This document shows positions 8,525-25,492 of a stretch of DNA of 35,323 nucleotides, piece by piece. Each line of letters starts with the position of its first letter. The first letter of the stretch is position 1. A model generated the notes under the pieces. That model saw nothing but the letters and a program-made list of their open reading frames with translations, was not told where the DNA came from and did not search any database. Origin of the DNA: a virus; IMG/VR virus record IMGVR_UViG_3300040801_000642, positions 1-35,323 of that record; one strand, given 5' to 3'. The position numbers and the translations under genes were made by a program.

Positions 8525-8580
8525 TTGTACCCCCTTTCTTCATTTGTTTTATTAAATAGGGCTTTTAAAAGATAAAGGTT

Positions 8581-8609: not shown

Positions 8610-8638
8610 GCTCTTTTTTATCTAATACAATCTGCTAC

Positions 8639-8911
8639 TTAAAATTCCTCCGATTCATACCCTCTTGCTTGTAATGAATTTCCAGCTATCATCATTCTAA
8701 ATCTTTCAATTCTTCTTTTTAAATCATTTGATAATCGTTCTGCATCATCTACTGTTAAATCATATTTGTATTCTTTATTAAAGAAGATTAGAATTTCAAC
8801 TGGATTGGTTTTAAGTTCCATTTCATAAAACAATTCATACAAAAACAAATCATTCAATTCATTTCTGGATTTAGGATTTCTAATTTCATTATCTTTGATT
8901 GTCTTTTTCAT
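8639..8911 (-). CDS. Hypothetical protein, 90 aa
   Basis: A charged, helical protein starting MKKTIKDNEIRNPKSRNELN. SD AAAGGAG and the recurring ATTGAA spacer come before ATG 8911. It is the last gene before the promoter gap at 8525-8638, so it may end a transcription unit. No motif or family recognised. Confidence 0.65.
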   Translation of the reverse strand: MKKTIKDNEIRNPKSRNELNDLFLYELFYEMELKTNPVEILIFFNKEYKYDLTVDDAERLSNDLKRRIERFRMMIAGNSLQARGYESEEF

Positions 8912-8946
8912 TTCAATCTCCTTTTAAATTCAATTGTAATTCTGTT

Positions 8947-8977
8947 AAAATCTGGAGTGAATTGTCGTGTTGGAATT
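8947..8977 (-). repeat. Dispersed CACTCCAGATTTT element, copy 1
   Basis: On the minus strand this 31-base stretch reads CAACACGACAATTCACTCCA and then GATTTT. Related copies are at 18150-18180 and 21450-21480. All three lie in short non-coding gaps upstream of a minus-strand gene. A regulatory site or RNA element is possible; function unknown. Confidence 0.5.
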
Positions 8978-9188
8978 ACTCTTCTAAAATTTCAATCAAG
9001 TTAAATGCTTTTATTTCTTGTTTAACTTTATCTCTAAAGTCTTCTATCTCTTCCTGTGATGCATTTAATGAAATTCTGCTGCTTAATGCAGAATTGGATT
9101 TAACCTCCATTGGATTAAGAGAAACATGATACTCCAAATAGCCGTTTAATTCAATCAATTTATAAAAGACCTTGTTCCTTCTAAACAT
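8976..9188 (-). CDS. Hypothetical protein, 70 aa
   Basis: A small mixed-charge protein starting MFRRNKVFYKLIELNGYLEY, with an acidic helical C-terminal half. Its start overlaps the previous stop as TAATG, which argues for translational coupling with the 91-residue protein upstream. No motif recognised. Confidence 0.65.
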   Translation of the reverse strand: MFRRNKVFYKLIELNGYLEYHVSLNPMEVKSNSALSSRISLNASQEEIEDFRDKVKQEIKAFNLIEILEE

Positions 9189-9463
9189 TATGTTTTCTCC
9201 TTTGCCTTTTCAATTGTTAATTCAAACTCTTCAATTGGGAATACCCATCTGTTTTGTCCTGTTGTTCTTCTTCTCCCTTCATTTGACATATATGCAATTG
9301 TAGCTTTACCATGTTTGATTTCAGCATAGAAAAACTCAGGATCAATGTCTGATGTGTTCTTTTCAATTATGGTGAAATCAACAGGTTCTAAATTGTATTT
9401 GATTATTTCGTTATGATAGATAATATCCCCTATTTTCAATTGCTTTGCTTCATTTAACTTCAT
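9188..9463 (-). CDS. Hypothetical protein, 91 aa
   Basis: It begins MKLNEAKQLKIGDIIYHNEI, a strand-rich pattern (..L.IGD.I.) often seen in small SH3-like barrel domains of phages, and ends with an acidic helix. ATG 9463 overlaps the end of the arginase-fold-like gene by 14 bases. Function unknown; the barrel suggestion is only a pattern match. Confidence 0.65.
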   Translation of the reverse strand: MKLNEAKQLKIGDIIYHNEIIKYNLEPVDFTIIEKNTSDIDPEFFYAEIKHGKATIAYMSNEGRRRTTGQNRWVFPIEEFELTIEKAKEKT

Positions 9464-10190
9464 TATTTAATCCTTTCATTTGTTCTCTTATATTAGCCTC
9501 AAATTCCTTTGCAAGTTTGAAATCAAATGTACGTTTTCGAGATACATAATCAGTAATTACAGATTTATAACTCCTTTCAAATGGGAATATGAAATTCAAC
9601 CATTGTTTATCAGACCAGGGAGGAGTCCAGCAACTTGATCTACAAACAAATACATAATTAACATCAATCAATTGATCTGGTAATTCATAATTAATGCTTG
9701 TTATGTATTCTTTAACATCATTTAGATTACTTTCTGGTTTCTCCTTTCTCCAAGGTGGATAATACAAATGGTATTGATGTATTCTATTTCTTAGCATATA
9801 TGCCCAATTGCTACAATCCAATTTCAATTGGTTATCATAAAATATATCATGATGTTGGTCAAAATTGTGGATAATGAATTTGGTTCCTTTACCTTCAATT
9901 AATTCGGCAATATTGGAATGTGAATCATTTATATAAGCAATGAAGTTTGAGTTGTTATATAAATATGAAAGATCAAATACATTTCCCCAAAAGTTCTTTA
10001 GTAATTTGAAATTAGGATGAACAACTCTATTGGCTTTGGTCTTTGGATTGAATAGATCAACATTTCCCCATCTGAAAGGCCAAATGGATTCATAATAGAA
10101 ATTGTTCTGCTCATTCATTTGCCAATCAAAACCACTTAGATCGGGGAAAAAGTAATCCCAATCCACAGATAGGATGGTTTTTAATTGCAT
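9450..10190 (-). CDS. Possible arginase-fold (UPF0489-like) metal-dependent protein
   Basis: The 246-residue protein has an acidic/histidine motif series typical of metal-binding hydrolases: SVDWDYFF at about 8-15, INDSH at 87-91, HNFDQHHDIFYD at 108-119 and DCSNWAYML at about 125-133. The order and the D.HHD core recall the ureohydrolase/deacetylase superfamily and UPF0489. Such enzymes cleave C-N bonds in guanidino or acyl-amino substrates with two metal ions. It starts 2 bases after the stop of the winged-helix gene, so it is in the same operon. Substrate and even the fold remain uncertain. Confidence 0.5.
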   Translation of the reverse strand: MQLKTILSVDWDYFFPDLSGFDWQMNEQNNFYYESIWPFRWGNVDLFNPKTKANRVVHPNFKLLKNFWGNVFDLSYLYNNSNFIAYINDSHSNIAELIEGKGTKFIIHNFDQHHDIFYDNQLKLDCSNWAYMLRNRIHQYHLYYPPWRKEKPESNLNDVKEYITSINYELPDQLIDVNYVFVCRSSCWTPPWSDKQWLNFIFPFERSYKSVITDYVSRKRTFDFKLAKEFEANIREQMKGLNNEVK

Positions 10191-10191
10191 A

Positions 10192-10728
10192 TTAGCTTCC
10201 TTTCATAATATCTTGTAATTCATCCAATCGAATTGCACCACCTGACTTTTTCCTCAATTGTTCATTCAATTCATGGATCTTCTGTCCCTGTTTTGAAATA
10301 TGTCGATCCCTTTCTTGAATCATACCATCTTTATCTATGTTTTCCAATTTCAATTGCTTGATTTCATTTTCAAGTCTTTCAATTTGCTTGTTCTTGGATT
10401 CAATTAATTGTTCAATTGCATTTCCAATGTCAATGTAATCAATTCCATGTTGAGCTAACTTGGTTTCTTCTGGTTCTTCTTTTAGTTCTTCTTCAGGTTC
10501 TTTTGGTTCTGGTATATCAATTAAAGTATAGATTTTGGTTTTGCCTCTTTGTGCAATTGGTTTGATAACCCGCTTATTTTTGACTAAATCCCTTCTAACA
10601 CAAGTTGCAATTGAACTTGCATTTCGATCAGGTAATAGATCAATTACTTCTTGAGTTGTGAATTCACCTTTTTCAGCGACCAATAGATCAATAGCCTCTT
10701 TCACTTGTTCAATCAAAGTCATTTCCAT
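10192..10728 (-). CDS. Winged-helix-like N-terminus with C-terminal coiled coil
   Basis: Starting at ATG 10728 (AAGGAGAATTGAA just upstream) rather than the longer frame at 10782, the protein is 178 residues. Residues 1-75 look like a winged helix: VKEAIDLLVAEKGEFTTQEV, then DRNASSIATCVRRDLVKNK and a strand pair ending KTKIYTLI. A Glu/Pro linker follows, then a long heptad-rich coiled coil (IEQLIESKNKQIERLENEIK). This suggests a dimeric DNA-binding regulator or primosome-like accessory; the target is unknown. Confidence 0.65.
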   Translation of the reverse strand: MEMTLIEQVKEAIDLLVAEKGEFTTQEVIDLLPDRNASSIATCVRRDLVKNKRVIKPIAQRGKTKIYTLIDIPEPKEPEEELKEEPEETKLAQHGIDYIDIGNAIEQLIESKNKQIERLENEIKQLKLENIDKDGMIQERDRHISKQGQKIHELNEQLRKKSGGAIRLDELQDIMKGS

Positions 10729-10744
10729 TTCAATTCTCCTTCCT

Positions 10745-11020
10745 TCATTTAACAGTTGCAAAGAAATGTACTGCCCTTTCAATCAATTGATAATCATTAA
10801 TGGTCAATTCCCTTTCTTCTGGTTGACCACCTTTATAAAACCAAGGGGTGAACACAGTCTTATAAAGATGGTAGATTCTAATTCTATCAGGATTGCTAAA
10901 TTCATTACAATATTTAGCTCTCCTGCTATGGCAAGTCATTACCCGTTTCCAATTCTCCACAATGACTTGCCATTGCAGTCTATTCAATTCATTTCTATTG
11001 AATATGATTGCTAATCGCAT
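10745..11020 (-). CDS. Hypothetical protein, 91 aa
   Basis: A basic, tryptophan-containing small protein starting MRLAIIFNRNELNRLQWQVI. The start overlaps the previous stop as TAATG. It has a central cysteine pair (MTCHSRRAKYC) but no paired CxxC, so a zinc site is not clear. No family recognised. Confidence 0.6.
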   Translation of the reverse strand: MRLAIIFNRNELNRLQWQVIVENWKRVMTCHSRRAKYCNEFSNPDRIRIYHLYKTVFTPWFYKGGQPEERELTINDYQLIERAVHFFATVK

Positions 11021-11811
11021 TATGTAATCCCCAATCCAATCCGTTTACGCACATACCGTTTCAATGCAGTTGTCAATCTTTCCCTGGTCATATCCTCCGC
11101 AAATGGTTTTTGATCTTTCCATCCTGATTGTTTCCAATAGTATGCTATGTTATGGAAATCAATTGGTGCCAGCATAGCCTTGGATTCTTTGATTGCATTG
11201 TGAAGCATGGATGGGACAAAGTAATTGGAATTGATATGTCCCATAATATGATCGGGATCACCATCACCCATTGCTTTACCATTTTCAGCATCTACCATTA
11301 AACATAACCAACAATCACCATCAGATGGTGCTGGTATTTTATGATTGAAGAACTTATCAATAAACTTCTTACAGAATTCATCAGCCTTTCTTTTCTTCTT
11401 CTCAATCTTTTTCAATTCCTTTATATCATATGGTTTGTAATCCTTATCATTTACTGTAACTTGGTTTCCAGAAATTACCAATTCATCAACAAAGAGATAG
11501 GGATTTCCAGATACACTAATAAACCATATGAACTTTTCCTGAGTTATGCTGATATGATCCGGGGTATAGTAATTGATTCGATTCCTTGTAGTGATGGTTC
11601 TCCATCCATCGGTATTCAATTGAATGTTACCGTTTTTGAAGTATTTGACAATAATTGTATTGTGCAATCTGATTCCAACACAATTATCATCAATTCGAAT
11701 GATCCTGGTATTGTTTGAATTGCCATTTTTGGGTGCGGGTCTGCTCTCTTTGTTTTTGCCTCTTTCCAAATAAACAGCAATTGATTCATAATTGTTATTG
11801 AAATCGTCCAT
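11020..11811 (-). CDS. Phage-conserved hypothetical protein, 263 aa
   Basis: The N-terminal half is strand-rich (SIAVYLERGKNKESRPAPKN, GWRTITTRNRINYY). A lysine-rich helix follows, and then a C-terminal segment with PSDGDCWLC, DPDHIMGHINSNYFVPSMLH and a basic tail. I recognise this C-terminal pattern (DGDCWxC ... H ... Y.VPS(L/M)L..A) from many tailed phages; its function is not known. The Cys/His content may bind metal. It is transcribed between the 91- and 255-residue genes with SD AAAGGAG. Confidence 0.65.
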   Translation of the reverse strand: MDDFNNNYESIAVYLERGKNKESRPAPKNGNSNNTRIIRIDDNCVGIRLHNTIIVKYFKNGNIQLNTDGWRTITTRNRINYYTPDHISITQEKFIWFISVSGNPYLFVDELVISGNQVTVNDKDYKPYDIKELKKIEKKKRKADEFCKKFIDKFFNHKIPAPSDGDCWLCLMVDAENGKAMGDGDPDHIMGHINSNYFVPSMLHNAIKESKAMLAPIDFHNIAYYWKQSGWKDQKPFAEDMTRERLTTALKRYVRKRIGLGIT

Positions 11812-11844
11812 TTTAATTCTCCTTTCTTTTGTTTGAATATTGAT

Positions 11845-12609
11845 TTACCAATTGAGTTGACTCATATCCCCTACTTCTTCCAATTGAGCATCTATCCTTT
11901 CTTCATTTAAGGTTTCAATGCTGGTATCAATTGCAGATTTTGCCATGTCAAGTAATCCACTTTCTTCAAAGTCACCATAGAATCCCCAACATGAATCCAA
12001 ATCATTTTCATTTGGATCTTTAACATTAAAACCATATACATTTCCTGTCAAATAGTCATCATACAGTTTAACTTCAGATTTCAAAATGTCAACAACTTTA
12101 TCAATTCGATTCTTATTTAACTTCTTCCAATTGAATTCTTTCTTTACATTCTCCTTTGATACATAAATGAATCCTACTTGACCACTATCCCAAGGACAAT
12201 TGAATGGTCCTGTGCTGATTGTAATTACTGAATGATCGTAAAGGTAAAGCGGAAGTAGAATATAATTGGAGTCAATTGCCTTGTTAATGATTTTGTTGAC
12301 TCTTTCTTCTACTGCTTTATCAGCTAATGCAGAAGCATCTTTATATTTGTTTGCTATTTGTTGCCAACCTTCAAACCGTTCCCAATACTCAATTCGATCC
12401 CTTACGGTAGAATCATATTCTTTTGCCAATTCAACTCTGTATTCATTTGGATCAACGTTGGGTTGTTCGTGTCCAAGATCATAACGGGAATGCCAACAAA
12501 CCATTTTGCCCATCATATCAAACTCATCAATTGGGCTTAATGGATTGTCATCCAGATAGATTTCAATGATATGATCCTTGTATTCAATTGTCTCAATTGG
12601 TGCATCCAT
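11845..12609 (-). CDS. Widespread phage/plasmid conserved protein (LYLYDHS...CPWDSGQVG family)
   Basis: From ATG 12609 (AAGGAGG plus the ATTGAA spacer) the protein is 254 residues. It shows MMGKMVCWHSRYDLGHEQP, then LPLYLYDHSVITISTGPF.CPWDSGQVGFIYVSKE, and an acidic C-terminal region (DSCWGFYGDFEESGLLDMA). These blocks are the hallmark of an abundant but uncharacterised family carried by phages and plasmids. The longer frame to 12630 lacks a suitable SD. No enzymatic motif is obvious. Its neighbours are also of the accessory conserved-hypothetical kind. Confidence 0.7.
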   Translation of the reverse strand: MDAPIETIEYKDHIIEIYLDDNPLSPIDEFDMMGKMVCWHSRYDLGHEQPNVDPNEYRVELAKEYDSTVRDRIEYWERFEGWQQIANKYKDASALADKAVEERVNKIINKAIDSNYILLPLYLYDHSVITISTGPFNCPWDSGQVGFIYVSKENVKKEFNWKKLNKNRIDKVVDILKSEVKLYDDYLTGNVYGFNVKDPNENDLDSCWGFYGDFEESGLLDMAKSAIDTSIETLNEERIDAQLEEVGDMSQLNW

Positions 12610-12622
12610 TTCAATCCTCCTT

Positions 12623-12961
12623 TTATCCAATACATTTCAAAATGAATTCAGGATTGGAACTAATTGATTTATCCCATTCTTTGTATCTGACAAAGAATCT
12701 ATATAATTGTCTCCTTTTGTCTTTAATCCAAGCATCCAAATGAATGCCACTCACGTATCCAATTTCAAACGTTGCTGATACACCACCACATAATTCACTA
12801 CAATCTGGAAATCGTTTGAAAAAGGTATTCTCAGCTTGATTGATATACAAACGATCCCCTGAATCATTGATTCTACTGTAATCGAATCTATCCTGGGGAA
12901 ACCATTTAGGAATTGTAAATGTAACTCTAATTGAATCAATTGAAAATGGTAATTTATTCAT
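12623..12961 (-). CDS. Hypothetical protein, 112 aa
   Basis: A strand-rich protein (RVTFTIPKWFPQDRFDYSRI ... GGVSATFEIGYVSGIHLDAW) ending in basic RFFVRYKEW. SD AAAGAGG and the ATTGAA spacer precede ATG 12961, which overlaps the end of the 109-residue gene by 4 bases. Not recognised. Confidence 0.6.
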   Translation of the reverse strand: MNKLPFSIDSIRVTFTIPKWFPQDRFDYSRINDSGDRLYINQAENTFFKRFPDCSELCGGVSATFEIGYVSGIHLDAWIKDKRRQLYRFFVRYKEWDKSISSNPEFILKCIG

Positions 12962-13287
12962 TTCAATTCCTCTTTCTCTGGAATGATTACATCATCAAAC
13001 CACAATGATAACAAATAGGCACATCCCGCTTCCTTATGTTCATGCTTTGGATCAAATGATCGAAGAATTGAGACAATATGCCTTAATGCTTCTTTGGTAT
13101 TAATACCTTCTTTTGGAATGAATTCAGTTTCCTTTGGTAATCCTATAAAAAACCATCTTGAAACAATTCTATTCCATCTGGTATATCCATCCTTGAATTC
13201 TTTTGGAATTTGATCCCATTCAGGAAGTAATGATTTGATTTCCCCAAATGTTACATCTAAATTGGTCACTATTTTTGGTTTAATCAT
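12958..13287 (-). CDS. Hypothetical protein, 109 aa
   Basis: It starts MIKPKIVTNLDVTFGEIKSL and contains W..IP.EFKDGYTRWNRIVSRWFFIGL, a histidine/acid-rich centre (DPKHEHKEAG) and an amphipathic helix. Four-base overlaps with both neighbours (ATGA-type) mark it as part of a coupled gene string. Not recognised. Confidence 0.6.
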   Translation of the reverse strand: MIKPKIVTNLDVTFGEIKSLLPEWDQIPKEFKDGYTRWNRIVSRWFFIGLPKETEFIPKEGINTKEALRHIVSILRSFDPKHEHKEAGCAYLLSLWFDDVIIPEKEELK

Positions 13288-13688
13288 ATTGCTTCTCCCT
13301 CTTTTGTTTCTGAATTACCAACTGGAATTCCAATTGCATTCCATGCTCCATCGGTTATAAAGATAAACCGATGTTTCAATGCAAAATCAAGCATAGTACC
13401 ATTAATCAATTGTTTAACTGCTTCATCCTTGATTACAGCCCATTTACCTGTTCTATATGGATTGGGAGGCATTCCATCTTTTGATCGCATTTCTTCATCT
13501 GTAGTGTTATCATTAATTGAAATGAATATAATGCCTTGTTCCATCCATTTTTTGCAATCATTACAAGGCTCATCATTTATTACGCCACAATTCATTGGAA
13601 GTGAATTTTTGAGTCTTCTATCCAATACAATTCCCATCGGTTTATTGCAATAATAACAATTGAACATTCCAACATGAGACTTTTCCAT
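13284..13688 (-). CDS. Zinc-finger-like conserved phage protein, 134 aa
   Basis: Start taken at ATG 13688 after GAAGGGAG. Residues 10-60 hold CYYCNKPMGIVLDRRL, then NCGVINDEPCNDCKKWMEQGIIFISI: two C-x2-C pairs about 30 residues apart, typical of a zinc ribbon. The remainder (PYRTGKWAVIKDEAVKQLI) matches a family I recall from phage early regions without known function. Coupled to the downstream gene by overlap. Confidence 0.65.
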   Translation of the reverse strand: MEKSHVGMFNCYYCNKPMGIVLDRRLKNSLPMNCGVINDEPCNDCKKWMEQGIIFISINDNTTDEEMRSKDGMPPNPYRTGKWAVIKDEAVKQLINGTMLDFALKHRFIFITDGAWNAIGIPVGNSETKEGEAI

Positions 13689-13725
13689 TGTAATTCTCCC
13701 TTCATTCATTTGATTTAACTTCGAT

Positions 13726-15012
13726 TTAACTCATGAATTTATCAATGTATTCTTCAACCAAATCATTTCCAATCAATTCATTCAAATTCCTTTCAAGTTT
13801 GTAAATCAATCGTTTCGTTTTACTTGCCTTTTCCCTTTGGGATTTACTAAGCATATCAAACCCCAATTCATTTCCAAACTCTTCGAAATCAGGATGCTGC
13901 CATAGATAGGCAATATCAATTAGCATTGAATGCCAAACGTCTTTAACCAATGGTGGTTTGGCTACTCCCTGATCTTTAGGATAGGTTAAATCATTTACTC
14001 TCAATTCCATTTGACCATAACGATCCTGGTATTGTTTGAAATATACTTTCAATGCTTCAATTCGATCATCGACACTTGATTCCCGGTCAAACAATAGCCG
14101 ATGTCCGAATCCAGTTGAATAATAGAATGTCTTTTCAACTTCATTGCATTCCAATACTAATTTCCAATGATCCATTTCAGTTGAATCCATATTTGGATTG
14201 GAATACTCTTGAAATATGGAGTTGCATTTGATGTTATGGTTTTTCAACCATTCATCAATCTCATTGATCTGTTTTGATTTGTCAATTGAAGCTGGCAACG
14301 TAACAAAGAAATCAATTACCTCTTGTGGCAAGTATTCAATTAACCAATTGGTTCCGTATTTATATCCGCATTCAGGACATTCTTTGCAAAGTATGCCATC
14401 AGGATGTTCATATGGATAAGTCCAATTGGCAATCTTTTCCTCAGTTTTGTATTCAATTACACCATTATCAAACCAGGACTTTTCAAATCCTTCCGGTTCA
14501 TATTTCATGTTTTTCAATTGCATCAACTTTACCTTTTTAATCATCTTTCCAATTGGACTTGTGGGTAGATTATTCAAATTCATTCTTAGCACATTGAATT
14601 CATGTTTATTCTTTGGATTGTATTTCAATACGTCAAATAGCTTCGCTAATTCCTTATCTTTCATTTTCCAGGTGTTTACCCTGATATTTACTATTTCGAG
14701 CTTTTTAGACCTATTCCAATTCTTCTGATGAATACACCATGCTCTGGCATCATTTAAATGCCATTCTTTCCAATATTCAATCATTTGAAGCAAATCATTC
14801 TTATCCATATACAATTCATCCAATTCAAGCAACTCATCATATGCCTGTCCTCCCCAATTCATTGAATGAGCCGATATGGATAGCTTTTGATATGGTACAG
14901 CCGGTTTCAAATGGACATCCAGTTTTCCATTGACATCATTTTCGGTTTTCAATTCCCAATCCAATACAACTTGCTTTCCGTCTTGTTTTCCGATCACCAT
15001 TGACTTTTTCAT
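13726..15012 (-). CDS. Phage-conserved hypothetical protein, 428 aa (possibly two fused families)
   Basis: The N-terminal part has SMNWGGQAYDELLELDELYM, then MIEYWKEWHLNDARAWCIHQ. A central CPECGYKYGTNWLIEYLPQEVIDFF carries one CxxC. The C-terminal part has VKDVWHSMLIDIAYLWQHPDFEEFGNELGFD. Each block recalls a different small phage family (the WHLND.(x)2.C.HQ type, the YGxxWLxxxLP type and the FE(E/D)(F/W)..(E/D)LG(F/Y)D type), so this may be a fusion. None has a known function. SD GAAGGGAG lies before ATG 15012; the next minus-strand start is 38 bases past its stop. Confidence 0.65.
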   Translation of the reverse strand: MKKSMVIGKQDGKQVVLDWELKTENDVNGKLDVHLKPAVPYQKLSISAHSMNWGGQAYDELLELDELYMDKNDLLQMIEYWKEWHLNDARAWCIHQKNWNRSKKLEIVNIRVNTWKMKDKELAKLFDVLKYNPKNKHEFNVLRMNLNNLPTSPIGKMIKKVKLMQLKNMKYEPEGFEKSWFDNGVIEYKTEEKIANWTYPYEHPDGILCKECPECGYKYGTNWLIEYLPQEVIDFFVTLPASIDKSKQINEIDEWLKNHNIKCNSIFQEYSNPNMDSTEMDHWKLVLECNEVEKTFYYSTGFGHRLLFDRESSVDDRIEALKVYFKQYQDRYGQMELRVNDLTYPKDQGVAKPPLVKDVWHSMLIDIAYLWQHPDFEEFGNELGFDMLSKSQREKASKTKRLIYKLERNLNELIGNDLVEEYIDKFMS

Positions 15013-15063
15013 TTCAATTACTCCCTTCTTTCATTTGATTGAATGTTTTGCATTTAACTTGGA

Positions 15064-15779: not shown

Positions 15780-15782
15780 TAA

Positions 15783-16858: not shown

Positions 16859-16915
16859 TTCCAATCTCCTTTCACTTATTCAATTGGTTATTTGTGCTTA
16901 ACTTCATTCTGGTGC

Positions 16916-16944
16916 AATATACACTTTTAAAATGCACTTGTCAA
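16916..16944 (-). promoter_or_regulatory. Consensus sigma70 promoter for the 16858 gene string
   Basis: On the minus strand TTGACA (16939-16944) and TATATT (16916-16921) with a 17-base spacer. The expected start of transcription falls close to the GAAGTTAA piece of the shared leader. It lies in the gap between 16963-17355 and 16022-16858. Confidence 0.85.
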
Positions 16945-16962
16945 CATATTTTCAATTGCATT

Positions 16963-17355
16963 TTAACTATATTCTTTCTTTTCAATTGATTCATAGAAAT
17001 CCCCCCATGAAGTCAATTGATATTCTTTATTCTCAACATCATATACAATTGTTGAAGCATATGTTTCTCCCATATTTACGTATAATCCAATTGTATTACG
17101 CCAGAAGTTATCTACATGATAATTTTCAACTATAATTGATTCTACTCCAAAACCTTCCAGCATTTCGTTAATTGCATTCATTGTTAATTCAATCTTTTGT
17201 GGATAATTGTAACATTTCAATATCCACTTGATATTGGAATCAAACTCAATTAATTCTTCTACTTCTAAACCATCAATCAATTTCTTTGTAAGAATGAGTT
17301 TGATTGATTCAATTGTCGGAAACACTTGTCTCAATTCTTCAATTGTAATTGTCAT
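16963..17355 (-). CDS. Small conserved phage protein (YVNMGETYASTI ... SWGDFYE), 130 aa
   Basis: The C-terminal half, with ECxVE-like LEGFGVESI, then GLYVNMGETYASTIVYD and YQLTSWGDFYES, matches a widespread small phage/plasmid family recognised by Y.N.G(D/E)TY..T and SWGD. Function unknown. The first 60 residues are a variable helical extension. It follows the 77-residue gene after 2 bases and ends just upstream of the promoter at 16916-16944. Confidence 0.65.
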   Translation of the reverse strand: MTITIEELRQVFPTIESIKLILTKKLIDGLEVEELIEFDSNIKWILKCYNYPQKIELTMNAINEMLEGFGVESIIVENYHVDNFWRNTIGLYVNMGETYASTIVYDVENKEYQLTSWGDFYESIEKKEYS

Positions 17356-17357
17356 TT

Positions 17358-17591
17358 CTAATTCCTTTCATTGATTTGTTCAAGCAATCTGTTAATGATA
17401 GCCAATAGCATTTCTTTTGACATCCATTCCAATTTGATTTCTTTTAATTGATTAGGATTCAATTGGAAGTCTTCACCACAATACATATTCAATCCACCTA
17501 TATGATTTGGATAATTCATTTGGTAAACTGATTTGCCAATTAATACAACCAAATTAGGATTGTCTTTTTCTTCATAGATTTTGATATTCAT
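17358..17591 (-). CDS. Hypothetical protein, 77 aa
   Basis: Starts MNIKIYEEKDNPNLVVLIGK and ends in a helix (MLLAIINRLLEQINERN). Its ATG overlaps the stop of the membrane protein gene upstream by four bases. No motif recognised. Confidence 0.55.
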   Translation of the reverse strand: MNIKIYEEKDNPNLVVLIGKSVYQMNYPNHIGGLNMYCGEDFQLNPNQLKEIKLEWMSKEMLLAIINRLLEQINERN

Positions 17592-17701
17592 TTGTTTTGA
17601 ATCTCCCTTATAATTAGAATTAAGAATACTGTTACTGGAATTACAATTGTTAGCTTAAGCAAATGATATGGTGAATTCCAGATTGCCATATACAATTCCA
17701 T
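17588..17701 (-). CDS. Tiny single-span membrane protein, 37 aa
   Basis: From ATG 17701 (SD AGGTG five bases upstream) the product is 37 residues with one hydrophobic helix (LLKLTIVIPVTVFLILII) and a positive tail. The longer frame up to 17788 overlaps another membrane ORF and has no SD. It follows directly on the 42-residue membrane protein. A holin- or superinfection-type role is conceivable, with no direct evidence. Confidence 0.5.
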   Translation of the reverse strand: MELYMAIWNSPYHLLKLTIVIPVTVFLILIIREIQNK

Positions 17702-17705
17702 ACTA

Positions 17706-17834
17706 TCACCTGTTATAAAACAAGTTATTAAAAGTATCAAATGCAATTGGAAGTAGTTCAGGGTAAAATATGATAGTACTGAATCCAATTACAAAACCAA
17801 TCATCAATATAATACAAACCCATCTTTCAATCAT
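17706..17834 (-). CDS. Tiny single-span membrane protein, 42 aa
   Basis: ATG 17834 overlaps the stop of the zinc-finger gene as ATGA, with GGGAGG upstream. The product has one N-terminal hydrophobic helix (WVCIILMIGFVIGFSTIIF) and ends FNNLFYNR. Five bases separate its ATG-proximal stop from the next small membrane gene. No family recognised. Confidence 0.55.
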   Translation of the reverse strand: MIERWVCIILMIGFVIGFSTIIFYPELLPIAFDTFNNLFYNR

Positions 17835-18037
17835 ACATCCTCCCTAAATTGTTTCACCATTTGATTAAGTTCATTTGAAACACATTCAGGACATATTAAA
17901 TCAATCTTCTTTGGCCCCCCTATAATTAATGGTTTACCGCAATTGCAAACAAGTCTTTCGTTTGTAAATGGAATGACAAAACATCCATCGTCATCCCGAT
18001 TCAATTTGATTCGCCATATCTTCTTTGGTTGAGCCAT
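17831..18037 (-). CDS. Small zinc-ribbon protein, 68 aa
   Basis: The protein starts MAQPKKIWRIKLNRDDDGCF and carries CNCGKP around residue 31 and CPEC around 49, i.e. two CxC/CxxC knuckles as in short zinc ribbons. It is the first gene behind the promoter at 18073-18101 and carries the GAAGTTAAA leader piece and SD AAAAAGGAA. Likely nucleic-acid or protein binding; nothing more specific can be said. Confidence 0.6.
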   Translation of the reverse strand: MAQPKKIWRIKLNRDDDGCFVIPFTNERLVCNCGKPLIIGGPKKIDLICPECVSNELNQMVKQFREDV

Positions 18038-18072
18038 TTGAATTCCTTTTTTGAATTTAACTTCATTTTGAA

Positions 18073-18101
18073 CTTATACAAACTTGAATGAAATATGTCA
18101 A
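18073..18101 (-). promoter_or_regulatory. Sigma70 promoter for the 18037 gene string
   Basis: Minus strand TTGACA (18096-18101), 17-base spacer, TATAAG (18073-18078). The -35 and the 23 bases upstream belong to a 28-base sequence repeated exactly at 21744-21771. The A/T-rich GGATAAAATAAAG block may be an UP element. Confidence 0.8.
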
Positions 18102-18124
18102 GTCTTTATTTTATCCAATTAAAT
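18097..18124. repeat. 28-base exact repeat, copy 1 (partner at 21744-21771)
   Basis: The plus strand reads GTCAAGTCTTTATTTTATCC then AATTAAAT, identical at both places 3.6 kb apart. Here it covers most of a -35 hexamer and the A/T-rich region upstream. Identity of this length outside genes suggests recent duplication or a shared binding site. Confidence 0.8.
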
Positions 18125-18149
18125 TAACAAATTGAATTCAAAATAGCTC

Positions 18150-18180
18150 AAAATCTGGAGTGATTGCCATGTTGCGAATT
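18150..18180 (-). repeat. Dispersed CACTCCAGATTTT element, copy 2
   Basis: Shares AAAATCTGGAGTGA and then TTG.C.TGTTG with the copy at 8947-8977. It lies about 50 bases upstream of the -35 box of the 18073-18101 promoter, just past the stop of the 44-residue membrane gene. Confidence 0.5.
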
Positions 18181-18190
18181 AAATCGTTTG

Positions 18191-18325
18191 TTAATTGAAA
18201 AACAATGCTTTTATTAGCCAGGAAGCAAACCCAAAAACTGCTTCCACTATAAGAACGATCATCAGAATTGAATTGATCTTTTTCATGTATTTGACAATTG
18301 ATTGCTGATTAATTTGAACGTCCAT
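18191..18325 (-). CDS. Tiny single-span membrane protein, 44 aa
   Basis: ATG 18325 with SD AAAAGGGG and the shared leader upstream; stop TAA at 18191. The product starts MDVQINQQSIVKYMKKINSI, followed by one hydrophobic helix (LMIVLIVEAVFGFASWLI) and KALFFN. The leader and SD argue that it is translated. Function unknown. Confidence 0.6.
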   Translation of the reverse strand: MDVQINQQSIVKYMKKINSILMIVLIVEAVFGFASWLIKALFFN

Positions 18326-18428
18326 TTGGATTCCCCTTTTCAATTGATTGTTTGCATTTAACTTGGTTTTCCAATAACCTTATACGATCAATCATTATGC
18401 CCTAATCCAGAACAATCCAGATCGCCAG

Positions 18429-18488
18429 CAATAGCTATAAATCAGCCTGGGCATGGGTACATAGCCACAAAGCCAGATCATGGCATTG
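18429..18488 (-). repeat. CAATAGC hairpin element, copy A
   Basis: CAATAGC at the left end faces GGCATTG at the right, with weaker inner pairing including GGGCATG/CATAGCC. The 30 bases to its left (CCAGAACAATCCAGATCGCC) and right (GAATTGATTTTAG) align with copies B (18622-18682) and C (19649-19708). The unit is about 75-95 bases including flanks. RNA structure or small mobile repeat; undecided. Confidence 0.5.
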
Positions 18489-18621
18489 GAATTGATTTTA
18501 GATTGTTTGGGATTGGATTGTAATTCTGGAATACAAGGCAGGATTGATTGATATTATTTGATAATCAATAGGCAATTCCTCCACATAACTTGGGTTTAAT
18601 TCAGACCAATTCAAATCGCTT

Positions 18622-18682
18622 CCAATAGCTTTAAATTGTAAACTGGTATATTCCTATACCCTGTTTTAGTTTATGCTATTGG
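18622..18682 (-). repeat. CAATAGC hairpin element, copy B
   Basis: CCAATAGC pairs with GCTATTGG at the ends, and GGTATA/TATACC closes a TTCC tetraloop, with AAAC/GTTT pairing between. Left flank TTCAGACCAATTCAAATCGC aligns with copy A. It lies between the terminator-like hairpin at 18700-18748 and copy A, with no gene in between. Confidence 0.6.
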
Positions 18683-18699
18683 AATTGATTCTACAAACG

Positions 18700-18748
18700 C
18701 AAATAGGGCATATTACCATCCTGGTTTGGATAGCAATTGCCCTATTTG
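18700..18748 (-). terminator. CAAATAGGGCA hairpin, copy 1 (terminator-like)
   Basis: 11-bp perfect arms CAAATAGGGCA/TGCCCTATTTG, extended inward by ATT and ATCC pairs around a small internal loop. It starts 25 bases after the stop of the 170-residue zinc-ribbon gene. On the minus strand it is followed by a T-rich but interrupted stretch (GCGTTTGTAG). A near-identical hairpin follows the gene ending at 20095. Confidence 0.6.
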
Positions 18749-18772
18749 GATTTAACTTCGAATTACAATTGA

Positions 18773-19285
18773 TTAATCATTTCCCGATTGCCAATCCTTA
18801 CTTGTCCATTTAATCCAATCGGGATTAAAAGGCATAATCCAATCATGATTGCAATTATGACAAAGAAACTGGTATTTTGTAATTGATATGGCAAATGCGC
18901 TTTCCACATATTGATTGATTTTTCCACAATACGGACACATTTGATTGGCCCGATTGTAGCAATTCCAATCAATCCATTTGTCTTCGTGAATCCAATTACC
19001 ATTTGCCCTAAAAACAGGTTTCAATACTTTTGCCAATTGTCGTGGCTGAATCAATTTGTTTGAACTAATTATTTCAAATACAAATGTTTCTGCCCTATCA
19101 GGCATTGTTCGAATTGTTGGATTGACCTTGGATTCAATTGCAATCCAATCTTTGATTGATTCAAACCGATTGGTATCAATTGCCGTTCCAGCAAATATCA
19201 ATTTGATGTCAGCCAAATGGACATTGCCTTTAATCCAATCGACAGTACAACTTGAAAGTGACAATCCGATTAAGTGATTACTCAT
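18773..19285 (-). CDS. Hypothetical protein with C-terminal zinc ribbon, 170 aa
   Basis: Start at ATG 19285 (GAAAGGGGAATTGAA). The N-terminal 100 residues are mixed alpha/beta (VHLADIKLIFAGTAIDTNRF). Residues about 130-165 form a zinc ribbon, CPYCGK ... CHNCNHDW. The extra 37 residues of the longer frame cover the shared leader and are not coding. It is followed by a hairpin terminator. Function unknown; the ribbon suggests nucleic-acid binding. Confidence 0.65.
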   Translation of the reverse strand: MSNHLIGLSLSSCTVDWIKGNVHLADIKLIFAGTAIDTNRFESIKDWIAIESKVNPTIRTMPDRAETFVFEIISSNKLIQPRQLAKVLKPVFRANGNWIHEDKWIDWNCYNRANQMCPYCGKINQYVESAFAISITKYQFLCHNCNHDWIMPFNPDWIKWTSKDWQSGND

Positions 19286-19337
19286 TTCAATTCCCCTTTC
19301 ATTTGGATTGTTTGAGTTTAACTTGGTTTGGATTGAT

Positions 19338-19592
19338 TTAGAAATAACTGGAATGGTTTTCGATATATTCGACTTTGGAATCAATTGCGAGTTCAATCAA
19401 TTCGATGATTCTTTCCCTTGTCAATTCTTTATCCGTAACGTCAATGTCAATAAACCCATCGTTATTAATTGAAATATCCTCCGATTTGCAATTGGTCCAA
19501 ATAGTAATATTCGAATTGATTTCATTATCACAATATAAGTCAATTGAATTGCACTTAAACGGCTGATTGTAGCTACGATACATGATTTTCAT
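19338..19592 (-). CDS. Hypothetical protein, 84 aa
   Basis: Start ATG 19592 (AAAGGAATTCAA). Starts MKIMYRSYNQPFKCNSIDLY, strand-rich, ending in a helix ELTRERIIELIELAIDSKVE. The preceding in-frame codons lie in the shared leader. It sits between the hairpin element copy C and the 170-residue gene. Not recognised. Confidence 0.6.
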   Translation of the reverse strand: MKIMYRSYNQPFKCNSIDLYCDNEINSNITIWTNCKSEDISINNDGFIDIDVTDKELTRERIIELIELAIDSKVEYIENHSSYF

Positions 19593-19648
19593 TTGAATTC
19601 CTTTCATTTGATTGTTTGGGCATAACTTCATTTAATTCAGATCGGCTA

Positions 19649-19708
19649 CAATAGCATGAAACAGGCATAACTTGGTTTTGGTATATCCTAACCTGTTTCA
19701 TGCTATTG
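19649..19708 (-). repeat. CAATAGC hairpin element, copy C (17-bp perfect stem)
   Basis: CAATAGCATGAAACAGG (19649-19665) is perfectly complementary to 19692-19708 around a 26-base loop. The left flank TTCAGATCGGCTA aligns with copies A and B after a roughly 10-base gap. It lies 18 bases beyond the stop of the gene at 19727, so it may also act in 3' end formation. No clear T run follows it on the minus strand. Confidence 0.65.
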
Positions 19709-19726
19709 GATAGGCATTGGGATTGA

Positions 19727-20005
19727 TTATTTCGGTGCTTTCCAATTGTCGCAATCAATCACTTTCCAGCCAAATGACTCCCATCGTTTAAACGTCGGCT
19801 TCCAATTGCGATTAGATGCCATATGAATCAATTCAATCGGGCCAATTTCATTGTAATTATAAATACAGTCTTGATTGATTGATAAATCAATTGAGCTTGC
19901 ATCAGTACTGGTATTTGGATAACAAGCATCATAACGTAACATATCAATTGGGAAACGATTGATTAAACTGTTTGGGATTACTTTGAATCGAATTGGAGTT
20001 GCCAT
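19727..20005 (-). CDS. Small conserved phage protein (LRYDACYP type), 92 aa
   Basis: Start ATG 20005 after TGGAGGAATTGAT. The product starts MATPIRFKVIPNSLINRFPI and continues with DMLRYDACYPNTSTDASSI, a pattern I recall from a small family in many phages and prophages (LRYD.(A/C)(F/Y)P...(D/S)). Function unknown. The longer frame to 20080 would read through the hairpin at 20042-20092 and is unlikely. Confidence 0.6.
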   Translation of the reverse strand: MATPIRFKVIPNSLINRFPIDMLRYDACYPNTSTDASSIDLSINQDCIYNYNEIGPIELIHMASNRNWKPTFKRWESFGWKVIDCDNWKAPK

Positions 20006-20041
20006 ATCAATTCCTCCATTTGAATTGTGATTGAACAAACA

Positions 20042-20092
20042 CAAATAGGGCATATTACCATCCAATTGAATGAATAGCAATTGCCCTATTTG
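20042..20092 (-). terminator. CAAATAGGGCA hairpin, copy 2 (terminator-like)
   Basis: Arms CAAATAGGGCA (20042-20052) and TGCCCTATTTG (20082-20092) are the same as at 18700-18748, as are the inner CATATTACCATCC and TAGCAATTGCCC. It begins 3 bases after the stop of the gene ending at 20095. On the minus strand it is followed by GTGTTTGTTC. Confidence 0.65.
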
Positions 20093-20094
20093 AT

Positions 20095-20448
20095 TTAACG
20101 ACTCAATTCATTGGAACGGCTGATTGCCAATTGGGTCCAACTCCAATATTTGGGGAACAATCCATTTAATCCACGTTTAATCTCACGCGGAAACCAATGT
20201 TCAATTGCAATTGCAGTCGTATAATCCTTTCGCAATTCCTCAATTGCATTGCAATCCCCATTGAATACGAATTCGATTGTGGTATGAGGATGATGAAATG
20301 GATTGTGAGTCGGATTACCCAATTCACAATCCAAACAATGATATTCGCATTCGAATAAAGTAATGCCTTGCCAATTGCCATATTTGGATTGATTGAGCCT
20401 GGACAATTGGGTTTTCCGATTGCATCTTTTCTTGCGTGTCTTATTCAT
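20095..20448 (-). CDS. Hypothetical protein, 117 aa, Cys/His-rich
   Basis: Start ATG 20448 after GGAAGGGGAATTGAT. Residues 1-20 are very basic (MNKTRKKRCNRKTQLSRLNQ). CEYHCLDC and HNPFHHPHTT could bind zinc, and the C-terminal half is helical with aromatic residues (IAIEHWFPREIKRGLNGLFP). The promoter at 20527-20555 and a leader hairpin lie upstream; the CAAATAGGGCA hairpin lies downstream. Thus it has its own transcription unit. Not recognised. Confidence 0.6.
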   Translation of the reverse strand: MNKTRKKRCNRKTQLSRLNQSKYGNWQGITLFECEYHCLDCELGNPTHNPFHHPHTTIEFVFNGDCNAIEELRKDYTTAIAIEHWFPREIKRGLNGLFPKYWSWTQLAISRSNELSR

Positions 20449-20472
20449 ATCAATTCCCCTTCCTTTACAATT

Positions 20473-20513
20473 GGCAATTGGATCACCTGACCAATTCAGA
20501 TGACCCAATTGCC
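20473..20513 (-). promoter_or_regulatory. Leader hairpin between promoter and ATG 20448
   Basis: GGCAATTGGaTCA pairs with TGAcCCAATTGCC (13 positions, one mismatch) with a 15-base loop. It would lie at the very 5' end of the transcript from the promoter at 20527-20555. It might be a 5' stabiliser, an attenuator, or the terminator of the preceding unit. Confidence 0.55.
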
Positions 20514-20526
20514 TTTGATTATGGTT

Positions 20527-20555
20527 TAAATATCAGAATGCAATTGAGATGTCAA
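20527..20555 (-). promoter_or_regulatory. Sigma70-like promoter for the gene at 20448
   Basis: Minus strand TTGACA (20550-20555), 17-base spacer, TATTTA (20527-20532). The spacer itself contains CAATTG. It lies directly between the stop of the 257-residue gene and the leader hairpin. Confidence 0.7.
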
Positions 20556-20558
20556 TAG

Positions 20559-21332
20559 TTATTTAATTGCAGTTTTCAATCCACCCAAGCTAACCACTTC
20601 AGCCAAAGCATTTTTAAATGGAATCCATTCGGTAATTGATTCGGTAATTCCATTTGAATTGAGAACTACCATCCAATTGTTGCCAAAACCCCTAACCATT
20701 GCCAATTCATTATCAAACCGAATAAAGGCATCTTCGGTATTGACATTTGGATTGGACTTGTATTTGAATTCCACGATTGTTTCACGCCGAATACCCGAAT
20801 TGTCAATTGATTTGGTTTTTGCGTGTTTGATTGTTGGATTGTTTTTCAATGCCTGATTGTGTGCCTTAATTGAATCACGATTGGGTTTGGGGCTGGAATT
20901 GACAGGCTTGTTGGGAATTGGATTGGATTTGGGATTGGAATTGGATTTGGCGGGTTTGTAATCAATTAATAGTGCAGGATCGGTAATTGGTACAGGAATC
21001 CAAGGTAATTGGATTACATTACCAACATATCGTTTCGATTTGAATTGGGGTTTGGAATTGAGTTTTGCCCGATTGCCTTTGGGAATTGATTGTTTAATCC
21101 GATTGACTTCCTTTTTATGAATCAATTCCTGGTACAATTCAGGGTAGGCAAGCTTGAAACAACTGGTACATACCATATCCAGCAATTCAATTGTAATCGG
21201 GTGAATTGTTTTCCCATCGTAATAAGTTTTGGAATCACAATCAATCGAAATGTCATTTGAATTGATTGATTTTCCACAAAAATACCGATTGGCTTCCGAA
21301 TTGTAAAGGTGTTTTTTCAATTGCTTTTTCAT
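20559..21332 (-). CDS. Hypothetical protein, 257 aa, with Asn/Pro/Lys/Ser-rich linker
   Basis: Start ATG 21332 (AAAGGAATTGAA); the longer frame to 21416 lies in the leader. The N-terminal domain (residues 1-75) has CG near residue 19 and MVCTSC, a possible metal site. Residues about 120-180 form a low-complexity linker (SNSNPKSNPIPNKPVNSSPK), coded by repeated CAAT-containing codons. The C-terminal 70 residues are a strand-rich domain (AMVRGFGNNWMVVLNSNG). First gene left of the divergent regulatory region. Not recognised. Confidence 0.6.
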   Translation of the reverse strand: MKKQLKKHLYNSEANRYFCGKSINSNDISIDCDSKTYYDGKTIHPITIELLDMVCTSCFKLAYPELYQELIHKKEVNRIKQSIPKGNRAKLNSKPQFKSKRYVGNVIQLPWIPVPITDPALLIDYKPAKSNSNPKSNPIPNKPVNSSPKPNRDSIKAHNQALKNNPTIKHAKTKSIDNSGIRRETIVEFKYKSNPNVNTEDAFIRFDNELAMVRGFGNNWMVVLNSNGITESITEWIPFKNALAEVVSLGGLKTAIK

Positions 21333-21449
21333 TTCAATTCCTTTCTTTAATTGTGGGCAATGCCCATTTGAATTGTGGAAATTCTCAATCCAAACATTTG
21401 GATTTACTATTTCCACCTATTGGAATTGGAATTCAATTCCAAATATGTC

Positions 21450-21480
21450 AAAACCTGGAGTGTCGCCTGTTTGTTGGTTT
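21450..21480 (-). repeat. Dispersed CACTCCAGGTTTT element, copy 3
   Basis: AAAACCTGGAGTG followed by a diverged TTTGTTGG stretch. It directly abuts the -35-like TTGACA of the minus strand (21446-21451). The weakest of the three copies. Confidence 0.4.
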
Positions 21481-21577
21481 TTCAATCCAATTGATTAATC
21501 TCAATTGCCATGTTATGCCCTGGAGATTTGTTTGCAATTGGAAGGACCACCCGATCAAATGAATGATCTCCTGCGGA

Positions 21578-21619
21578 TTGCAATTATCCAATTGACTTAA
21601 AACAATTGGATAATTGCAA
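21578..21619. repeat. Perfect 17-bp inverted repeat with 8-base loop
   Basis: TTGCAATTATCCAATTG (21578-21594), loop ACTTAAAA, then the exact complement (21603-21619). The core CCAATTGACTTAAAACAATTGG appears again at 21640-21661. No T run follows, so a DNA-level role such as protein binding or an origin cruciform is more likely than termination. Confidence 0.75.
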
Positions 21620-21639
21620 TTGCAAGCTATAAGCAATTA

Positions 21640-21663
21640 CCAATTGACTTAAAACAATTGGAT
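21640..21663. repeat. Second copy of CCAATTG-ACTTAAAA-CAATTGG stem-loop
   Basis: Exact repeat of the centre of the 21578-21619 hairpin, including loop and GGAT to its right. Only 7 bp of stem are conserved. Confidence 0.7.
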
Positions 21664-21743
21664 TGCAATTAAAACAAGTAAAAGCACAATCTAATTGACT
21701 TTTACTTACAGGAAAAACCGTTTTCTCATAAGGAATTGAAAAA

Positions 21744-21771
21744 GTCAAGTCTTTATTTTATCCAATTAAAT
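21744..21771. repeat. 28-base exact repeat, copy 2
   Basis: Identical to 18097-18124. Here the -35 hexamer on the minus strand would be TTGACT rather than TTGACA and no good -10 follows at 16-18 bases. So this copy is probably not an active promoter but may keep a binding site. Confidence 0.75.
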
Positions 21772-21866
21772 AGGATATTTAAATAAGCAATTGAAAGCAA
21801 TTATAAGTGATTTAATTGCTTAAAATACAATTACAAAACAATATGCAATTGAGGCAATAAAAACGT

Positions 21867-21896
21867 TTGACATATTAAAAAGAACTATGATATATT
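21867..21896 (+). promoter_or_regulatory. Sigma70 promoter of the plus-strand transcript
   Basis: TTGACA (21867-21872), 18-base spacer, TATATT (21891-21896). It is 53 bases upstream of ATG 21949 and is the only plus-strand promoter recognised. Confidence 0.8.
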
Positions 21897-21948
21897 GCTT
21901 TCCGTAGTTGATAGCAGTAAACAAACAAACAAGGAAAGGGATTAGCCT

Positions 21949-22980
21949 ATGATCGAAACATTTACACCGTTTTATGATCACCGTGGGATTGCAGTACTTG
22001 GAAAGCCAGTATTAAGTGAAATTGAATTCAATCAAATGAAAGAAAGGAAAAGACAAATGAAACTGAATTCTTTGAAACTGCAATTGAACAAGGCAACCGA
22101 AACCCCGAAGCTTTCACTTTCCAAAGGCACGATTGCAAAGGAAAGCGAAATCACGATTGAGAAACTGAATAGGATTGAAAGTCTTGAAAGGAAAGTCGAG
22201 GAAATACTGAAACGATTGGAGGGAATTCATAACGCAATCGGAAAGCAATATGAAACGATTGCAAGCTTGAATACTGAACTTATACCGTCAATTGTGCATG
22301 GTATGAAAACCCTTAACGATATGCAAAGCGAGAACAATATGCTTTGCATTCAAGCCTTGAAGTCTCTTCAATCGAAACCGATTGAAACAACTTTGAGGAA
22401 AGGAAATACAATTGAAACCCCAAAGGCGATTGAAACCCCATCTGAAACAAGCGGAAATGAATTGGAAAGGCTTGCAAGCCTTTGGCGCAAACATTGGACT
22501 GGGAATTTTTGCGGATCTCAGGAAATTGAATTGAAAGCCTTTGGGGAATTCATTGCAAAGATCAATGAAGACGATCTTGAAAAATCGTTTGATAATGCGG
22601 CCAGCAATCCCATAGGCAAAGCGAAGTACCCAATTGCAAGGGTAGGCAAGGCCAAAGCCTTTGAAGGCTTTAAACAGGCTTTAGCTGAGTTTCAAGGCAA
22701 TACCGAAACCCCATCGACAACTGAAACCCCGAAACCGATTGAAACCGAAACCCCAAAGGCAAGTGAAGTTATTGACACAAAATTCTTCATGAAAGCCTTT
22801 GCAATCGGTTTGGATAATGTGCAGGAAATCAAACAAGCTTGGATTGATGGAAACGATACTAAAGCCAATCGGCAAGCTGTGAAAGACTTCATTGAAGAGT
22901 TGACAGCTTGCAAACCTGAAACCTTTGGCTTTAAGGTTTGGCAATTGTTTTTCAACTGGCTTAACGCTTTCAAGCGGTAA
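21949..22980 (+). CDS. Plus-strand protein of 343 aa with coiled coil and ETPK repeats
   Basis: The only long gene on the plus strand. SD AAGGAAAGGG precedes ATG 21949. Residues 60-100 form a coiled coil (KLNRIESLERKVEEILKRLE). Low-complexity segments built on IETPK/ETPK occur at about 150-165 and 250-275. Two globular helical segments (LWRKHWTGNFCGSQEIELKA; KAFAIGLDNVQEIKQAWIDG) lie between and after. Codons are richer in G and C than the neighbours. It has its own promoter and terminator, as expected for a regulator, initiator or moron-type gene next to a repeat-rich region. No family recognised. Confidence 0.75.
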   Translation: MIETFTPFYDHRGIAVLGKPVLSEIEFNQMKERKRQMKLNSLKLQLNKATETPKLSLSKGTIAKESEITIEKLNRIESLERKVEEILKRLEGIHNAIGKQYETIASLNTELIPSIVHGMKTLNDMQSENNMLCIQALKSLQSKPIETTLRKGNTIETPKAIETPSETSGNELERLASLWRKHWTGNFCGSQEIELKAFGEFIAKINEDDLEKSFDNAASNPIGKAKYPIARVGKAKAFEGFKQALAEFQGNTETPSTTETPKPIETETPKASEVIDTKFFMKAFAIGLDNVQEIKQAWIDGNDTKANRQAVKDFIEELTACKPETFGFKVWQLFFNWLNAFKR

Positions 22981-22989
22981 AATTGAAAC

Positions 22990-23027
22990 AGGCTTGTCAA
23001 AGGCTTTCAATTCGCTTTGACAAGCCT
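22990..23027 (+). terminator. Terminator-like hairpin after the 343-aa gene
   Basis: AGGCTTGTCAAAG and its exact complement (13 bp) with a 12-base loop, 10 bases beyond the stop, followed by TTC. The weak T run may allow read-through into the 47-residue membrane gene. Confidence 0.65.
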
Positions 23028-23065
23028 TTCATCAAAACCATATACCATATGAAAGGCAAAACATA

Positions 23066-23209
23066 ATGGACTCAATTACGGGCATTTTACAGGCTTTTGA
23101 AACGATACCGATTGAAGTACTTGAGGCTTTAATCCTTACAGGCTTTTTTGTTGTTGGTATGGTGCTTTTGCTGGCGTGTATTGTTTGCCGATATTGGACT
23201 GGCAATTGA
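23066..23209 (+). CDS. Tiny plus-strand membrane protein, 47 aa
   Basis: ATG 23066 with a GAAAGG SD about 10 bases upstream; TGA at 23207. The product starts MDSITGILQAFETIPIEVLE, then one hydrophobic helix (ILTGFFVVGMVLLLACIVC) and RYWTGN. It lies between two hairpins in the same direction as the 343-residue gene and is probably in its transcript. Could be a small membrane regulator or holin-like protein; unproven. Confidence 0.55.
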   Translation: MDSITGILQAFETIPIEVLEALILTGFFVVGMVLLLACIVCRYWTGN

Positions 23210-23235
23210 CATTCAAGTTGATGGGTACAGCACAT

Positions 23236-23289
23236 AAGAGCAATTAGCAATTGATTATTTGAATTGACTCTCAATTGCTAATTGCTCTT
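23236..23289 (+). terminator. 19-bp perfect hairpin, likely terminator
   Basis: AAGAGCAATTAGCAATTGA (23236-23254) and its exact complement (23271-23289), 16-base loop. Read on the plus strand it ends in CTCTTTTAA, giving a short T run 27 bases after the stop of the 47-residue gene. Confidence 0.7.
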
Positions 23290-23576
23290 TTAATTGCATA
23301 TCATAAGTTAATCCAATTGACTAATTCAATTGCATAGTCAATTGAGCAATTCAATTACTAATTCAATTGCCGACCGTAGTCAATTGAATTCCCAATTGGG
23401 GCTAAGCCCTCCCCCGCTAAATTTATAATCAAAATGCAATTTGGTTCATCCAAGTAATATTATTGTTATATTAATAGCTCAATTTCATATTCAGTTTCAA
23501 TTATCCCCATTGTTTTTTCAATTCCAAATTATATAGATTTACAAATTTCCCATACTGATTTATTCAAGTCCTGTTT

Positions 23577-24129: not shown

Positions 24130-24162
24130 CTATGTTTAAATTGTAATAAATCTACTAAATAA

Positions 24163-25480: not shown

Positions 25481-25492
25481 TTGATCCTCCTT

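Follow-up and report, generated by a model that had tools for sequence, protein, structure and literature searches.

Phages are often poor in short palindromes. Why, then, would a phage carry one of them many times over within a single block of its genes? The question is raised by an IMG/VR phage record of 35,323 bases and 33.7% GC (IMGVR_UViG_3300040801_000642; this whole stretch is called the window), in which a script counted 151 copies of CAATTG. Base composition (order 0) predicts 12.1 copies, and Markov models of order 1, 2 and 3 predict 28.3, 52.3 and 82.4, which bears out the extreme enrichment claimed in the original prediction. The local counts made there by eye were exact as well (24 in 20,041-21,660, 7 in 23,271-23,400, 5 in 21,581-21,700 and 1 in 31,001-33,000).

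CAATTG enrichment and its extent in the window

Codon-preserving shuffles, proposed together with the Markov models as controls, were also carried out, and the excess survives both. Coding DNA contains 26 CAATTG in 1-8,638, 50 in 8,639-18,037 and 29 in 18,038-23,400, compared to 8.1, 19.6 and 13.9 in synonymous-codon shuffles, a 2- to 3-fold excess in every part of the island. With codons shuffled within genes, CAATTG reached a z of 26, the highest among all 6-mers tested in the window. The sites lie in all three reading frames, and a further 24 were found in the 1,846 non-coding bases of 18,038-23,400, so that coding and non-coding DNA are both affected, as had been claimed. The CAAT/ATTG core was likewise expected to be above chance, and these half-sites are indeed about 2-fold enriched; other words that contain them (AATTGA, GATTGA, CAATCA) are over-used too.

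An A/T-rich word that lies mostly within coding DNA could arise from base composition, codon usage or protein sequence. The excess nevertheless outlasts Markov, codon and synonymous shuffles, the island and the rest are similar in GC content, and GTTAAC and ACATGT, with the same composition as CAATTG, are nearly absent. Other A/T-rich 6-mers are not equally enriched either: the A/T-only words AAAAAA and AAAATT are strongly under-used and CAATTG ranks first. We therefore regard a compositional origin as practically negligible.

The CAATTG-rich island spans positions 1-23,400, holds 136 of the 151 sites and consists of an early/replication operon, whose genes are read leftward, together with its upstream divergent region. 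Confinement to 8,639-23,400, as originally described, holds on the right side, where the flank (23,401-35,323) has 15 sites against 9.9 expected (order 2) and thus no clear enrichment. It does not hold on the left, where 1-8,638 contains 29 sites against 9.2 (order 2), about 3-fold. The island therefore extends from base 1, with the contig beginning inside it, to a sharp end at about 23.4 kb beside a divergent gene. Its densest part, 18,038-23,400, packs 54 sites into 5.4 kb of small genes and the gaps between them.

On the minus strand, the island encodes an AAA ATPase (1,457-2,950; PF00004, phrog_8638) with 7 CAATTG in 1.5 kb, the polymerase domain of a family-A DNA polymerase (2,966-4,204), which served as query for finding relatives, and, as a separate gene, a uracil-DNA-glycosylase-like region with the 3'-5' exonuclease part of the polymerase (4,790-6,349). 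This split polymerase, with a gap or a small gene between its two parts, is common to the relatives described below (window 2,966-6,349; G014 72,752-76,087; G004 29,592-32,993). The Lar-like gene noted earlier near the island is real (1,115-1,453; phrog_599, E 3e-8); nothing ties it to CAATTG.

Several inverted repeats incorporate the word. In the divergent intergenic region, both arms of a perfect 15-bp inverted repeat (21,580-21,617) terminate in CAATTG where they meet the loop, ACTTAAAA, and a partial second copy with the same loop follows at 21,633-21,661. A perfect 18-bp inverted repeat followed by TTTT (23,237-23,292, plus strand) resembles a terminator hairpin and consists largely of CAATTG/AATTG. 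Other repeats were seen as well: two copies of a hairpin, AAATAGGGCATATTACCATCC ... GCAATTGCCCTATTTG, lie in the gaps between early genes (18,701-18,748 and 20,043-20,092), a 27-base repeat, GTCAAGTCTTTATTTTATCCAATTAAA, lies at 18,097 and 21,744, and TATTAAAGTCATTAAAAAA is present three times (23,863, 24,011 and 24,072) in the gap at the outer edge of the island, possibly as promoter or regulatory repeats. The sole Rfam match was a tRNA.

Distribution among related phages

Fifteen phage contigs with the same early/replication genes as the window were collected: seven IMG/VR contigs via the polymerase (61-68% identity), G014 via a profile and seven via the AAA ATPase. CAATTG is strongly enriched in 12 of them, weakly in two (2-fold in G021, in two 4-kb stretches in G016) and not at all in G015 across the 21.6 kb of that contig. 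Repeating the counts on a complete genome and on relatives, as had been suggested, thus recovered the enrichment in G014 and in most of the 15. The 12 include G003 and G007, which are nearly identical over 26 kb; the two (L007 and L011) come from different metagenomes and are 99.996% identical over that length.

G014 has a length of 108 kb and is probably a complete genome because it carries a 144-base direct end repeat. Here, the excess sets in near 56 kb, is greatest at 60-64 kb with 35 CAATTG in 4 kb against 4.3 expected (order 1) and fades past 84 kb, while the remainder is near expectation. Between 58.8 and 100 kb, genes are read rightward; the structural genes lie elsewhere and are read leftward. 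Measured against late-gene codon usage, CAATTG covers about 28 kb of the early operon at about 4.6-fold. The observed/expected ratios of successive stretches were 4.8, 4.6, 4.6, 4.6, 4.0, 3.7, 2.0, 2.9 and 1.0, which corresponds to a plateau near 4.6 at 58.7-74.5 kb, values of 4.0 and 3.7 up to 84.7 kb and of 2.0 and 2.9 up to 95 kb, and no excess at 95-100 kb; the late genes themselves gave 1.2-1.7. Since the codon-usage-referenced excess forms a plateau, the steeper raw gradient is due in part to amino-acid content, which has itself drifted towards CAATTG. The same layout was found in G004, and a gradient that agrees with it runs through the fragments G002, G003 and G007.

The sharp edge of the island falls at a divergent gene in the window (21,949-22,980, plus strand), in G004 (11,612-12,754) and in G014 (57,062-58,249). 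The G004 and G014 copies are 42% identical. The window gene shows weak similarity to them (E 0.003), and from its position and orientation we infer that it is their orthologue. No known domain was found in the boundary gene, and a structure model of its protein had a mean pLDDT of 47, a confidence too low for use.

The AAA ATPase tree places the window with the unenriched G015 on a deep branch and all other relatives on the other side. Judged from this tree, the trait may either be ancestral and lost in G015 or have been gained more than once. The G015 orthologue of the ATPase gene has 2 CAATTG against 7 in the window copy.

Outside this group, DLP5, JP1 and ZHS, named phages whose replication genes are related, have no comparable palindrome island; their top local palindrome is TATATA, in JP1. 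Viral contigs were also scanned for three CAATTG close together, which returned 120 loci, mostly attributable to chance. The strongest other locus (L047, IMGVR_UViG_3300031949_000082) is an unrelated phage contig that has a GC content of about 55% and tandem CAATTGT/CAATTGA heptamers in several gaps, and was set aside as a different phenomenon. Searches of the open-licence literature for CAATTG with phage palindromes, and for palindromes over-represented in the early regions of phages, brought up no account of the pattern.

Searching bacterial genomes with the polymerase profile for a possible host yielded distant Prevotella loci alone (26-27% identity), which lack the enrichment, and searches with terminase and head genes indicated no single host group. 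In the right flank of the window, a gene at 34,352-35,227 matches heptose kinase/adenylyltransferase families. A cupin and a general methyltransferase are nearby, and the three together hint at surface-sugar genes and perhaps at a Gram-negative host.

Strand symmetry and reduced synonymous change

Counted on the sense strand, CAAT and ATTG each exceed synonymous shuffles, which indicates that the pressure acts on double-stranded DNA and not on mRNA. The two half-sites overlap as CAATTG 13-fold more often than by chance, and none of their other spacings stands out. CAATTG sites show no helical phasing (10-11 bp), no flank preference beyond that of AATTG words generally and no tie to gene starts or start codons. 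Against each phage's own codon usage, taken from the late genes in G014 and G004 and from the right-flank genes in the window, CAATTG is the top-ranking 6-mer in all three (z 17.1, 14.2 and 15.2). CAAT is enriched 1.8-2.1-fold overall and 1.5-1.8-fold outside CAATTG, and the palindrome 4.0-4.6-fold. As the latter is near the square of the former (in G014, 4.6 against 2.1 squared), the true unit may be the half-site CAAT/ATTG, of which the palindrome simply holds two.

Raw site-by-site comparison of CAATTG between the window and its relatives revealed nothing special, as these sequences are too diverged, and closer pairs were analyzed instead. In G002 and G003, which are 93% identical, 89% of the island CAATTG are shared, compared to 71% for all hexamers. 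For a stricter, codon-matched test, we took codons whose amino acid was conserved and set synonymous changes within CAATTG against those in the same codon elsewhere. The odds ratios of eight island comparisons, which share genomes and so are not eight independent tests, were 0.54, 0.52, 0.44, 0.34, 0.36, 0.41, 0.35 and 0.47, and the two largest comparisons had z of -5.0 and -4.8. Pairs made up of different genomes gave z of -1.9 (G002-G003), -3.0 (G001-G005) and -4.8 (G014-G004). The neighbouring words TCAATT and ATTGAA are also low in synonymous change, GAATTC and GAATTG much less so. With synonymous change in CAATTG at about half the usual odds, natural selection appears, on the basis of these alignments, to keep the word at the DNA level.

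This result bears on the suggestion that the word is a by-product of mutational bias. A mutation or repair bias, such as biased gene conversion or the repair ratchet modelled for the HIP1 palindrome (PMC4390886), would have to act on the early operon only. It would account for sites that occur in all frames and in gaps and that alter protein composition. A raised rate of gain alone should not cut loss, however, and CAATTG is lost less often than identical codons elsewhere; no known process is tied to a single operon either. Biased conversion towards CAATTG would imitate selection, so the reduced loss is better explained by selection, or by conversion resembling it, than by a raised rate of origin alone. 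Mutational bias is accordingly disfavoured, and we consider it quite unlikely.

The original prediction also proposed a methylation or self-recognition mark. A host methyltransferase, or an unrecognised one of the phage, would target CAATTG, and the methylated sites would flag or time early DNA. In its form, an exact 6-bp palindrome without flank preference, CAATTG is typical of methyltransferase sites, and highly iterated palindromes accompany orphan methyltransferases (PMC4390886). On the other hand, the Pfam families searched for DNA adenine methyltransferases (PF01555, PF02086 and PF05869) were absent from the six phage contigs searched, one of which was the complete G014. Where early and neighbouring genes are annotated as methyltransferases, they fall into general Methyltransf families, and a strict 6-bp enzyme would not explain the enrichment of half-site words. 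A phage-encoded adenine methyltransferase is thus unsupported in these three families and six contigs, and we hold methylation in general to be improbable.

A third alternative starts from what the operon lacks. Early genes are the first to meet host nucleoid proteins, and an operon that evades silencers of AT-rich DNA, or spurious transcription, would shed long A/T runs and TpA while staying two-thirds A+T, with CAATTG-like words as what remains. H-NS, MvaT and Rok favour AT-rich DNA that contains TpA (PMC7002338, PMC8894471). Both depletions are present in the early operon: the TpA rho is 0.53-0.63 in the island compared to 0.71-0.88 in most of the remaining G014, and runs of A5 or longer occur at 0.33-0.67 of expectation. 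In positions 1-23,400 of the window, AAAAAA occurs 4 times against 67 in synonymous shuffles, and A/T runs are avoided to a lesser extent in the islands of the relatives. Evasion predicts no particular word, though, and CAATTG is first among 6-mers and selectively retained, with other TpA-free words that place four A/T between C/G, e.g. GAATTC, being less used. TpA depletion and CAATTG are also separable traits, since TpA is still low in G015 (0.60 at 16-21.6 kb), where CAATTG is near expectation. Silencer evasion accounts for the depletion of TpA and A/T runs but not for the specific word, and is an unlikely explanation of the island.

A possible operon-wide recognition word

The reading that we prefer, at a probability of roughly 0.4, is a selected, dispersed recognition word that is placed at high density over the early/replication operon and read by a sequence-specific DNA-binding protein. 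CAATTG, or the half-site CAAT/ATTG that the palindrome carries on both strands, would be recognized in double-stranded DNA, and a phage or host protein would occupy many low-affinity sites across the operon and treat it as one domain. The early genes might thereby be coated and silenced once the late genes take over; alternatively, early DNA might be held or protected. While we infer that a protein reads CAATTG, which protein this is, and whether it silences, protects or organises the DNA, is a guess. Among the meanings first offered for the palindrome was that a nucleoid or partition protein binds it. Strand symmetry, confinement to the early operon and reduced synonymous change agree best with a dispersed protein-binding word; the search for a candidate protein found none, the boundary gene being without a known domain. 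The near-square relation to CAAT, by which the palindrome may not be the unit, speaks against a recognition word, as do the retention of other CAAT words (TCAATT, ATTGAA) and the lack of enrichment over 21.6 kb in a close relative, G015.

The island resembles several dispersed-motif systems. To our knowledge, all highly iterated palindromes described to date belong to cellular genomes. HIP1 (GCGATCGC) and the alternate palindromes of cyanobacteria are, like CAATTG, short exact palindromes far above expectation in genes and gaps; they are reported to span whole cellular genomes and are tied to DNA methyltransferases (PMC4390886). CAATTG matches them in over-representation against composition (151 copies against 28.3 at order 1, top 6-mer) but differs in being a phage word confined to the early operon of G014 and G004, with no cognate methyltransferase among the families searched. 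Macrodomain sites are neither as short nor nearly as numerous (about two dozen matS) as CAATTG, which has 6 bp and occurs at 3-18 sites per kb. As in matS/MatP and maoS/MaoP of E. coli, where sites confined to one part of the chromosome let a protein treat a region as a unit (PMC7394560, PMC5023128), the CAATTG sites are regionally confined and apparently kept by selection (odds ratio 0.34-0.54 in eight comparisons). The stoperators of Cluster A mycobacteriophages are dispersed phage sites, too, and serve the phage repressor; they are asymmetric 13-bp sequences, of which a genome has about 30 at most, and the majority point one way relative to transcription (PMC6550527). CAATTG, by contrast, forms over 100 symmetric 6-bp sites inside genes, with half-sites enriched in both orientations. 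Finally, the xenogeneic silencers H-NS, MvaT, Rok and Lsr2/CgpS act over AT-rich foreign operons (PMC8894471, PMC7002338). They read A/T runs and not CAATTG, several of them favour features from which the island is kept free, and the phage word was gained, not lost. We file the CAATTG island as a new variant among dispersed-motif systems and not as a member of any one.

Going further, the phage may write a short symmetric word into a whole operon for recognition as a block by a DNA-binding protein, reshaping the protein sequences of the operon, with a sequence-coded chromatin domain in a virus as the outcome; this joint reading is tentative and, in our view, less likely than not. If true, phages can encode operon-wide DNA domains, and the trait has been kept across phages whose common AAA ATPase is only about half identical. 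CAATTG would then offer a direct 6-bp handle for finding its reader protein and would act as a compositional marker of early regions in uncultured phages.
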